A DNA stretch of 64,000 nucleotides, taken from contig JAITDN010000003.1 of NCBI GenBank assembly GCA_031282525.1, positions 1-64,000 on the forward strand, written 5' to 3'. Below are positions 21,994-26,674 of the stretch, in pieces. The first letter of the stretch is position 1. The number at the start of each line of letters is the position of its first letter. Both the position numbers and the translations under genes were made by a program. This DNA is from Candidatus Endomicrobiellum basalitermitum. GTDB taxonomy: Bacteria > Elusimicrobiota > Endomicrobiia > Endomicrobiales > Endomicrobiaceae. The notes beneath the pieces are model-generated. The model did not search any database, had not been told where the DNA came from, and saw only the letters and a list, made by a program, of their open reading frames with translations.

Positions 21994-23400
21994 TTAGATA
22001 TCTCTTTGCTTTAGGATGTTATGAAATCTTGTATAAATTTCTTCTAGTTTCATGCCTCTTGAGGCTTTAAATAAAAATACAGAGATATGATCAATAGGGA
22101 TTTGGTTAAGTTTTTTTAAAATAATATTTGTTTCTTTTGTATAAAAAACGTTTTTATTAACTAAAGCTTCTTTTGTATATGAACTCATTTCGCCTATAAG
22201 ATAGATAGAGTTTATGTTTTTTTGGGTATTGATAAATTTTCCAAGCTCGAAATGATAATCAATTGATTTATTGCCAAGTTCAAGCATATCACCAAGTACA
22301 AGATTAATTTTTCTATAAATATAATGTTGTGATACTGCTTGTATTGTTTCTCTCATTGAAGATGGATTTGCATTATAGGCATCATTTATTAAAACAACAC
22401 CACTTTTAGTTGTAATAGTTTCCATACGCATTTTAGGTAGTCTAAAGTTCTCTATACCATGTTTTATTTCATCAAGAGAAAATCCAAAGTTAGATGCACA
22501 AGCAGCAGCAGCTAAGGCATTTGACACATTAAATTTTCCTCTTGCTGGCATTTCGATTTTTATTGATTTTTTATTATAAAAGAGTTCAAAATCTATTTTA
22601 TCAAAAGATAATATTATATTTTTCGCACAAATATCTGCCTCCGTATCACAGGCAAAAGTGGTAACTTTATGACTATTTTGTATTTTGCATGCTTTTTTTA
22701 GAAATTTATCGTCATTATTTATAATAACAACACCGTTTTCTCTTACATTATCAAATAAAATCTTTTTTTCTTTAAATACACCGTTAGGTGAAATAAAGGT
22801 TTCCAAATGTGAAAAACCTATATTTGTTATAATTCCCGCATTTGGTCTTACTATGTTAGATAATATTTTAATTTCGCCATGTGAAGATGTTCCCATTTCA
22901 AAGACAGCATACTTAAAAATCGAAGTTAGATTAAGTACTGCAAGAGGAAGCCCTATCCTATTATTGAAATTGTTTTCATTTGAAAGAGTCTTGGCTTTTT
23001 CATTAAAAATTGAAACTAATATTTCTTTAGTGGTAGTTTTACCGTTTGATCCTGTTATGCCGACTATTTGTGTATTTTGAAATCTAGTAATATATGTTTT
23101 TGCAAGTTTACCGAGAGCAATAAGTGTGTCGTCTGTTTTAACAATTGAAAAGAAGTTTGATGGAATTTTTATAGAATCAACTTCGCTTTTTGAGCATACT
23201 ATTGCTGCTGCGCCTTTGAGAATTGATTCTTTTATAAAATTGTGACCATCATAACGATTTCCTTGTATTGCAAAATATACATCACCCTCTTTTATTGTTC
23301 TTGAATCTATAGAAATACCTGTTATAGGGAGATCAAGATTGCCTATTATAAACTTTCCGTCAATAGCTTGTATTAAATCTCTGAGATAAAATAACTCCAC
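21994..23400 (-). CDS. murF: UDP-MurNAc-tripeptide--D-Ala-D-Ala ligase
   Basis: Adds the D-Ala-D-Ala dipeptide. 468 residues: N-terminal domain (GISIDSRTIKEGDVYFAIQGNRYDGHNF), ATP loop GITGSNGKTTTKE, NIGFSHLETF, INDAYNANPSSM, and the C-terminal domain with LVLGDMLELG. The start is GTG placed directly after the murE TAA, with an AAAGAG ribosome-binding site inside murE, so translation is likely coupled. Confidence 0.96.
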   Translation of the reverse strand: MELFYLRDLIQAIDGKFIIGNLDLPITGISIDSRTIKEGDVYFAIQGNRYDGHNFIKESILKGAAAIVCSKSEVDSIKIPSNFFSIVKTDDTLIALGKLAKTYITRFQNTQIVGITGSNGKTTTKEILVSIFNEKAKTLSNENNFNNRIGLPLAVLNLTSIFKYAVFEMGTSSHGEIKILSNIVRPNAGIITNIGFSHLETFISPNGVFKEKKILFDNVRENGVVIINNDDKFLKKACKIQNSHKVTTFACDTEADICAKNIILSFDKIDFELFYNKKSIKIEMPARGKFNVSNALAAAACASNFGFSLDEIKHGIENFRLPKMRMETITTKSGVVLINDAYNANPSSMRETIQAVSQHYIYRKINLVLGDMLELGNKSIDYHFELGKFINTQKNINSIYLIGEMSSYTKEALVNKNVFYTKETNIILKKLNQIPIDHISVFLFKASRGMKLEEIYTRFHNILKQRDI

Positions 23401-24933
23401 TTAAAAAGTAAACTCTTTTTGTTTTATTTGTTTTGATGTGATTTTTTGTCTTTTTTTTATATCAATATATTTTTCAGCAATTTTAATATCATTGAAGTTG
23501 ATTTTTTCAGTGCCTATAATTTGATAAGTTTCGTGTCCTTTACCAGCAATTAAAATAATATCGTCTTTACTTGCCATCATCAAAGCTTCTTTTATAGCTG
23601 TCTCTCTATCTATTATCACTTTATAATTCTCTCTGTTGGATTTTTTTATTCCAGTTTCTATATCTAAAATTATTTGATATGGATCCTCTGTTCTTGGATT
23701 ATCGGATGTTACAAAAACAAAATCACTCATTTCTGAAGCAGTTTTACCCATTAATGGTCTTTTTTCTCTATCTCTATTACCACCGCAACCAAAGACAATA
23801 ATAATTCTTTTAAATTTTAGGCTTTTTAGGACTTGTAGAACATTTTTTAGAGCATCATTAGTATGTGCATAATCAATGACTACTTCAAATCCCATTCCCT
23901 TTGTATCAATTTTTTCGAGTCTTCCGGGAATATTTCTTAGGTTATTTAAACCTTTAAGAATTTTTTCTAAAGAAATTCCATTATAAATAGCAACAATAAA
24001 AGCTGCTATAGCATTGTAAATATTATGCAAACCCATATGGTTTATTTCGACTTTTACCTTTTCATTATTAAAAAATAAATCGAATATAGTACCTTTGTTT
24101 GTAATTATAATATTTTCAGCTTTAAAACCTGTTGTATTTTTTTCTACAATAGAATAAAATTTCATTTCTGCATTAATTTTTGTTTTTGATAATTTTTTTC
24201 CATATGGGTCATCAATATTTATTACGGCATACTTTTTTGTTTTTTTTGTATACATCCCTAATCTTTTAAATAATATAGATTTGGCTTTAAAATAGTTATT
24301 CTCATTTTTGTGAAAATCTAAGTGATCTTGCGTTAAATTTGTAAAAACTGCTATATCGAAATCTATACCATATACTCTACCTAAACTTAAGGCATGTGAG
24401 GATACTTCCATTATAAGATATTTAATATTATTATCTACCATTTCTCTCATAATTCTGTAGATATCTAATGATTGCGGTGTTGTATTGTCTCCATTAATAA
24501 CTTTGTTTTTATATCTGTAATTAATTGTACCTATGATTCCACAATCAATATTTGAACTGATGAATATACTTTCGAGCATATAAGTAGTAGTTGTTTTGCC
24601 ATTTGTGCCGGTTATACCTATAATATTTAACTCTTTATCTGGATAGTTGTAGAATTTTGCACAAAAAAGTGACATAAAATAAAGGATATCTTCAACAATA
24701 ACTTGAGTTATATTGTTGTTAGTGTCATATTTTGTATTTGTAATAATTACAGAAGCACCTCTTAGTATTGCTTCGCTTATGTATTTTCTTCCGTTAGTAT
24801 TATAACCTGGAAGAGCAAAAAAAGCATAATTTATATCTATTTTCCTAGAATCGTATGATATTTCAGACACTTCGATATTGTCATCACCTATAATAATTAC
24901 ATTTTCATTTTGTAAAAGATTTTTTAATTTTAT
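23401..24933 (-). CDS. murE: UDP-MurNAc-L-Ala-D-Glu--diaminopimelate ligase, non-standard start
   Basis: Adds the third stem-peptide residue. Present are GITGTNGKTTTTY, TNLTQDHLDFH, VVIDYAHTNDAL and the DNPRTEDP motif, whose DNPR sequence is that of meso-diaminopimelate-type enzymes. The start is odd. The first conventional start codon is a GTG at 24870, but homology-like sequence continues upstream in frame (KLKNLLQ, then VIIIGDDNIEVSEISYDSRK). It begins at ATA AAA TTA at 24933, where other MurE proteins have ATG, with GAGGG nine bases before it. I therefore place the start at the ATA (511 residues). If ATA is not used, the protein would begin at the GTG and lack 21 residues. Confidence 0.9.
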   Translation of the reverse strand: MKLKNLLQNENVIIIGDDNIEVSEISYDSRKIDINYAFFALPGYNTNGRKYISEAILRGASVIITNTKYDTNNNITQVIVEDILYFMSLFCAKFYNYPDKELNIIGITGTNGKTTTTYMLESIFISSNIDCGIIGTINYRYKNKVINGDNTTPQSLDIYRIMREMVDNNIKYLIMEVSSHALSLGRVYGIDFDIAVFTNLTQDHLDFHKNENNYFKAKSILFKRLGMYTKKTKKYAVINIDDPYGKKLSKTKINAEMKFYSIVEKNTTGFKAENIIITNKGTIFDLFFNNEKVKVEINHMGLHNIYNAIAAFIVAIYNGISLEKILKGLNNLRNIPGRLEKIDTKGMGFEVVIDYAHTNDALKNVLQVLKSLKFKRIIIVFGCGGNRDREKRPLMGKTASEMSDFVFVTSDNPRTEDPYQIILDIETGIKKSNRENYKVIIDRETAIKEALMMASKDDIILIAGKGHETYQIIGTEKINFNDIKIAEKYIDIKKRQKITSKQIKQKEFTF

Positions 24934-24958
24934 AGTTTGTATCCCTCTTAATTAATTT

Positions 24959-26674
24959 TTAATCGTCTTTTATAATATTTAAATATTGAGCTGTTCTTTT
25001 AGCTATATTTGCAAAAACTGGTGATGCAACTGAAGAAGCATAATAGTTTGTGCTTTTTGGTTCATCAATGATAACGAGTATTACAATTTTTGGATTCATT
25101 GCAGGTACCATACCACAAAAGGAAGCAATATAATATTTGAGAGAATAGGTTTTCGTTATAGGATCAAACTTTTGTGCTGTTCCGGTTTTTCCTCCAACAG
25201 TATATCCGGGGATTTTTGCGCTTTTGCCAGTACCAAAATCTACAACATTTTTTAAAAGTTTCTTTAATATTTGTGCAGTTTCAATTGAAATCACTCTTCG
25301 TATTTCTTTATGATTACAAATATTCTCAACCGTTTTGATGTCACTTTTTTCTATATATTTTACAGAAGGTTTTACTAATATTCCATCGTTTGCAATAGCA
25401 GAGAAAGCATTTATCATCTGAATTGCTGTAACTCCTATACTTTGTCCAAAAGAAATTGTTGGTAGAGATAAGGCATTCCATTTTTTAATATCTTTTAAAA
25501 GCCCTTTTGTTTCATCTGGCAGATCGATACCTGTTAAAGAGTAGAATCCAAATTTTCTTATATATCTATATAAATTCTCTTTTCCGAGTTTTTGTGCAAT
25601 TTTTACCATAGCTATGTTCGATGATTGTTCTAAAGCTTTACTTAATGAAACACAGTCTTCAATTTTGTGATTGTCTTTTATGGTGTGATTTGCAATTTTA
25701 TATCTCCCATTTTCTAAATAAAAAACATCTGAAAGTTTTATTTTTTTTTCTTCTAATGCCGCGGAAACAGTGACGATTTTAAAAGTTGATCCAGGTTCAT
25801 AAATATCACTTATTGCTGAATTTTTTAAAATTTCAATATCCTTAATTTTAACAGAAGAGTCGAAATCAGGTAAAGAAACCATTGCAAGAATATTTCCAGT
25901 TTTAGGATCCTGAACTATACATATAGCTTTTTTTGCTTTATATTTTTCAAAGGTTTTTCGTAGTTCTTGCTCTGCTATAAACTGTATGGTACGGTCTATA
26001 CTAAGTTTAATATTCTGTCCACAAATTTTAGTTTTGTCCACAAATTTATCTCGTATTATATGTCCGCGCCCATCTCTTCTATTTTTGGTTACAATGTTGT
26101 TTCCTGATAAAACTTCATTATAACTTTTTTCAATACCTGCTAAACCATTTCCACTATAACCTGTTATCCCAAGAATATGGGCAAGAAGTTTTCCCTCTGG
26201 GTATTGTCTTATATATTTATTTTCAAATCCGACACCTTTTAATTTTTCATTTTTGATCTTATCGACAAACTTTGTGTCGACATTAAAAGCGATTGGAACA
26301 TAAGATGTTTTTCCAAATTCATCTAAATTTTTCTCTTTAACATTTATTCCGTTTTTAGATAAAATATTTTTTAATTTGCATAAATCTTCTATTATTTTGG
26401 GATCGAGAAATATATTGTATTTTTTTATACTTGAAGCAAGAATATTTCCTTTTGAATCTAAAATGTCACCACGTTTTGCTATTTCAACATTTTCACGATT
26501 TATCATTTTCTCAACCGTAGTATTTATTTTAGTGTGTAAAAAAATTTGAATAAGTATAAGTTTTATAAATAAAATAAAAAAAAATATAAAAACTACAAGT
26601 GTAAGTAATATTTTTCTATCAATTTGTTTCATATTTTTTATCATATGAATATGTTGCTTAAATTTATAATTCAC
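24959..26674 (-). CDS. ftsI: Septal penicillin-binding protein (FtsI/PBP3 class B transpeptidase)
   Basis: Cross-links peptidoglycan at the septum together with FtsW. 571 residues: a membrane anchor at about 22-45, the dimerisation domain with REN-like region (RGDILDSKGNILA), then the transpeptidase domain with the active-site serine in EPGSTFKIVT, SSN in EQSSNIAM, and KTG in VGGKTGTAQK. The gene follows ftsL and precedes murE, the standard order. A second possible start lies at an internal ATG just before KQIDRK. Confidence 0.95.
   Translation of the reverse strand: MNYKFKQHIHMIKNMKQIDRKILLTLVVFIFFFILFIKLILIQIFLHTKINTTVEKMINRENVEIAKRGDILDSKGNILASSIKKYNIFLDPKIIEDLCKLKNILSKNGINVKEKNLDEFGKTSYVPIAFNVDTKFVDKIKNEKLKGVGFENKYIRQYPEGKLLAHILGITGYSGNGLAGIEKSYNEVLSGNNIVTKNRRDGRGHIIRDKFVDKTKICGQNIKLSIDRTIQFIAEQELRKTFEKYKAKKAICIVQDPKTGNILAMVSLPDFDSSVKIKDIEILKNSAISDIYEPGSTFKIVTVSAALEEKKIKLSDVFYLENGRYKIANHTIKDNHKIEDCVSLSKALEQSSNIAMVKIAQKLGKENLYRYIRKFGFYSLTGIDLPDETKGLLKDIKKWNALSLPTISFGQSIGVTAIQMINAFSAIANDGILVKPSVKYIEKSDIKTVENICNHKEIRRVISIETAQILKKLLKNVVDFGTGKSAKIPGYTVGGKTGTAQKFDPITKTYSLKYYIASFCGMVPAMNPKIVILVIIDEPKSTNYYASSVASPVFANIAKRTAQYLNIIKDD

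Follow-up and report, generated by a model that had tools for sequence, protein, structure and literature searches.

A Probable AUA Start Codon of murE in an Endomicrobium-Type Termite-Gut Symbiont

Organization of the murE Locus

The window, that is, the whole 64 kb stretch of DNA analysed here, lies at the very beginning of contig 4 in a MAG belonging to an Endomicrobium-type genus from the termite gut (719,205 bases in 4 contigs, 84% complete). On its minus strand, it carries a putative penicillin-binding protein gene followed by murE and murF (Table 1). The ftsI/pbp2-type name of the first gene is given from its position and sequence motifs. The murE product exceeds the curated cut-offs of both family models, NF001126 (E = 2.8e-170; 567 bits against a cut-off of 373) and TIGR01085 (E = 3.1e-153; 511 bits against 257), and contains the three Mur ligase domains PF01225, PF08245 and PF02875 (Mur_ligase N, M and C), identifying it as a member of the MurE family.

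Table 1. Features of the murE locus in the window, with the infC gene of the same genome.
Feature	Position	Strand	Remark
murF	21994..23400	-	GTG start; weak MurE/MurF similarity
murE CDS read from ATA	23401..24933	-	510 codons and stop TAA; no internal stop
GTG, codon 22, first canonical in-frame codon of murE	24868..24870	-	judged an internal valine
ATA at the native murE start position	24931..24933	-	comparison with relatives
Shine-Dalgarno GAGGG of murE	24943..24947	-	nine bases before ATA
In-frame TAA closing the murE frame upstream	24952..24954	-	sequence
Penicillin-binding protein gene (ftsI/pbp2 type), upstream in the operon	24959..26674	-	named by position and sequence motifs
infC (IF3) of the window's genome (L042)	G000:C4, about 234315-234824	-	start after extended Shine-Dalgarno

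On the minus strand, the sequence reads TAA(24954-24952) TTA AGA GGG ATA CAA ACT ATA(24933-24931) AAA TTA AAA AAT CTT TTA CAA, the murE frame being open from 24951; around codon 22 it reads GAA GTG(24870-24868) TCT. No ATG, GTG or TTG lies in frame between the upstream TAA and this GTG. The product would comprise 510 residues if read from the ATA and 489 if read from the GTG. A start further upstream, or a fusion with the preceding gene, is excluded by the in-frame TAA; the preceding gene lies in a different frame and ends with its stop 25 nt before the ATA. At the other end, the GTG of murF directly adjoins the murE stop TAA (23400-23403), so murF is probably translationally coupled to murE, as judged from this arrangement.

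The murE Start Codon in Related Genomes

Start codons were compared across the genus using the 29 other genomes in which the 5′ end of murE could be read. All of them carry a canonical codon at this position (27 ATG, one GTG and one TTG), and ATG is found in each of the three closest relatives (G046 (=L031/L134), G014 (=L002) and G042 (=L135)). It follows that the ATA is derived and occurs in the window's genome alone, and the comparison shows the change from ATG as a single G-to-A substitution in its lineage. In the genome L021, which belongs to a different family, the same alignment column holds ATA, but an ATG stands two codons before it. Among named genomes, Ca. Endomicrobiellum glyptotermitis (contig JAIRYQ010000002) is the closest, its MurE being 84% identical.

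Homology extends up to the ATA, where no canonical codon occupies the homologous start. Across the 20 codons separating it from the GTG, identity is 85% with either of the two relatives used for genome-wide comparison, and the NF001126 alignment begins at residue 2 of the ATA-started product (residues 2-21, KLKNLLQNENVIIIGDDNIE). The first-pass annotation, made from the sequence of the window, had proposed both that MurE-like sequence continues upstream of the GTG at 24870 back to the ATA at 24933 and that other MurE proteins have ATG in its place; the first proposal agrees with these matches, the second with the three closest relatives and 27 of the 29 genomes, the remainder being canonical too, and the alignment of codon 1 with close relatives confirms the ATG-to-ATA change. 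Being private, the ATA lacks the conservation among relatives that is seen for infC and ccpN. Conservation of a non-canonical codon is not strictly defining, as the AUA of Staphylococcus aureus citZ likewise occurs in one lineage only.

One base decides the ATA, and its source is a MAG. It could stem from an error in the consensus or assembly, or from a minority strain within a population that has ATG, and the lack of a second such case among 398 genes counts in favour of this. However, the assembly is contiguous, genes in it that look truly frameshifted are few (about four in some 400), the sequence around the ATA is clean, and G-to-A is common among the private changes in murE (9 of 57). We consider such an error or variant unlikely; as far as the assembly is trustworthy, the ATG-to-ATA change is real.

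Genome-Wide Context

The genome-wide comparison covered 663 kb of the window's genome and 592 kb of the nearest relative, and the orthologue scan, overlap-filtered to remove antisense shadow frames, yielded 398 pairs. Among these, murE is the sole long intact gene with a conserved N-terminus reaching many codons upstream of the first canonical start. Since it is the only clear case in the filtered set, the loss of its start is, on this comparison, more than chance. Exchanges among ATG, GTG and TTG were found at the start in 45 of 384 orthologue pairs, indicating that first-base changes of the start codon are tolerated and third-base ones are not, murE excepted.

A genome-wide move to ATA starts or an altered code can be dismissed: murE stands alone among the 398 pairs, 384 pairs have canonical starts, and the initiator tRNA of the window's genome has an ordinary CAU anticodon. 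In the initiator tRNA (G000:C3:50641-50716; nearest relative, G041:C2:69485-69560), A29-U41 replaces the usual G29-C41 of the three G-C pairs; the initiator tRNA of G014 retains G29-C41. The genes that are whole in relatives and frameshifted here (G000:C3:68727-69670; G000:C4:200754-201801, 204652-205431 and 227281-228624) are probable recent pseudogenes or assembly errors.

Selection on murE and Its N-Terminus

The omega of murE against the nearest relative (G041/G046) is 0.135, ranking 138 of 373, with a genome median of 0.153. By this measure, the gene as a whole is intact and under purifying selection. Codons 2-21, with dN 0.064 and dS 0.68 in the comparison with the nearest relative, show the same degree of conservation as the remainder of murE, and they carry no private nucleotide change wherever the three closest relatives share the same base. 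The substitution pattern thus shows an N-terminus translated until recently; a very recent mutation would leave this constraint silent on present translation.

Early inactivation, with murE expression being lost and the gene turning into a nascent pseudogene, would suit a reduced genome, and pseudogenes occur in host-associated relatives (PMC8809381). Against it, murE has no stop or frameshift, its omega lies under the genome median, and its private-change ratio (0.157) falls within the relatives' range of 0.10-0.17. The remaining mur/fts cluster is also intact, murF begins right at the murE stop, and no second MurE was found in the genome. We regard this inactivation as very unlikely. Intact and under selection, murE is most likely read from the ATA, a rare and weak start codon.

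Ribosome-Binding Signals and the Downstream GTG

The GAGGG had been placed nine bases upstream of the ATA in the first reading of the sequence, and it is indeed found there (24947-24943). Its duplex energy of -6.3 kcal/mol falls in the strongest third of 384 genes; these energies assume a canonical anti-Shine-Dalgarno, since no 16S 3′ end turned up in the parts of the genome analysed. The aligned spacing to the ATA is 8, which is workable, the commonest spacings in the genome being 4-7. The signal is moderate, with a 4-nt core match, and falls short of the extended Shine-Dalgarno of the S. aureus examples; an extended sequence is the usual companion of AUA starts and not a strict requirement.

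The same annotation had left two outcomes for the mutated gene, initiation at AUA or a restart at the GTG that removes 21 residues. The restart would yield a 489-residue protein without residues 1-21, whose N-terminal domain still has its conserved DSR motif. This GTG is the first canonical codon in the murE frame, and codon 22 is ATA in the three closest relatives and GTG in the window's genome. An AGGTGAT upstream of it has a duplex energy of -6.7. The Pfam Mur_ligase domain spans residues 22-69 when the protein is full-length and 3-48 when it starts at the GTG, TIGR01085 begins only at residue 19, and the short form loses just 3-9 bits; since the family models start near residues 19-22, the short protein could still be active. 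However, GTG at codon 22 is an ordinary valine in L003, L005, L010, L136 and L137, all with a normal upstream start, and the AGGTGAT codes for a common GD pair. Its aligned spacing to the GTG is 15, versus 8 for the ATA, and only 27 of 274 genes have a spacing of 15 or more. The absence of decay in codons 2-21 also argues against a restart, which appears improbable to us. Of the two outcomes, the sequence evidence thus favours AUA initiation and speaks against the GTG.

Apparent Non-Canonical infC Starts in the Same Family

In the family of the window's genome, infC appears to start at GUC, AUA or GUA. All 34 family genes located have GTC (22), ATA (9) or GTA (3) just after a strong, extended Shine-Dalgarno sequence, and none has ATG, GTG or TTG; the loci concerned are L034-L047 (L042 being that of the window's genome), L049-L051 and L146-L170. 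Close relatives differ by an indel that breaks the upstream frame, so the Shine-Dalgarno stretch is read as non-coding. In the window's genome, this signal ranks within the top 1% by strength. Elsewhere in the order, six genomes from other families have their candidate start one or two codons later, as GTA in five and ATA in one; L052, a more distant genome in the class, carries ATG at the corresponding position.

This comparative evidence (34 of 34 genes) indicates that near-cognate initiation is established in the lineage. A family-wide non-canonical start of infC would fit autoregulation by IF3. In Escherichia coli, infC starts with AUU. Other bacteria use AUC (Streptomyces; PMC5472188) or AUA (S. 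aureus; PMC13009471).

Interpretation of the murE Start

We consider it fairly probable, from the sequence comparisons above, that full-length MurE of 510 residues is still made after the ATG-to-ATA change, by initiation at the AUA. The codon would be read by the ordinary fMet-tRNA(CAU) and kept in register by the GAGGG, and ribosomes ending 25 nt upstream on the preceding gene may assist. Because the third base of AUA pairs poorly and IF3 discriminates against this codon, translation from it probably yields no more than a few tenths of what AUG would give. Such a reduced supply could suffice where the symbiont grows slowly and needs little of the enzyme.

AUA starts, noted as rare but real in the first-pass annotation, are documented in S. 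aureus, where they occur in infC, ccpN and the metabolic gene citZ, the last in one lineage only; for ccpN and citZ, AUA reporters reached about 10-30% of the AUG level (PMC13009471). Like citZ of the NCTC 8325 lineage, which is reported to be translated at a reduced level, murE is a housekeeping metabolic gene with a lineage-confined AUA; unlike citZ, supported by initiation-site profiling and reporters, its start is deduced from sequence, and its Shine-Dalgarno is weaker (PMC13009471). With the non-canonical infC starts, murE shares a near-cognate third base and an initiation that would depend on the Shine-Dalgarno sequence and IF3, whereas those starts are conserved and autoregulatory and the murE ATA occurs in a single genome, with no regulation indicated. 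A further parallel is Streptomyces sigR, whose GTC start is repressed by IF3: both are chromosomal genes other than infC with a non-canonical start, although the sigR start is conserved and regulatory and the murE codon differs (PMC5472188). The AUA of murE is thus most likely an uncommon case of an already known kind of gene start.

One may speculate that the AUA start was selected in this symbiont as an IF3-sensitive brake on peptidoglycan synthesis, MurE supply tracking IF3 activity. The discrimination against near-cognate codons that seems to operate on infC in the family would then act on murE too, but we find such a selected role very unlikely.

Gene finders would begin murE at the GTG, making the protein 21 residues too short, and will misplace the infC start in the family of the window's genome; the family-wide GUC, AUA or GUA start of infC suggests that such starts are routinely overlooked in these genomes. 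If real, the murE start would be a natural example of AUA having become fixed as the start codon of an essential enzyme, and it would show how much loss of initiation strength a symbiont tolerates.
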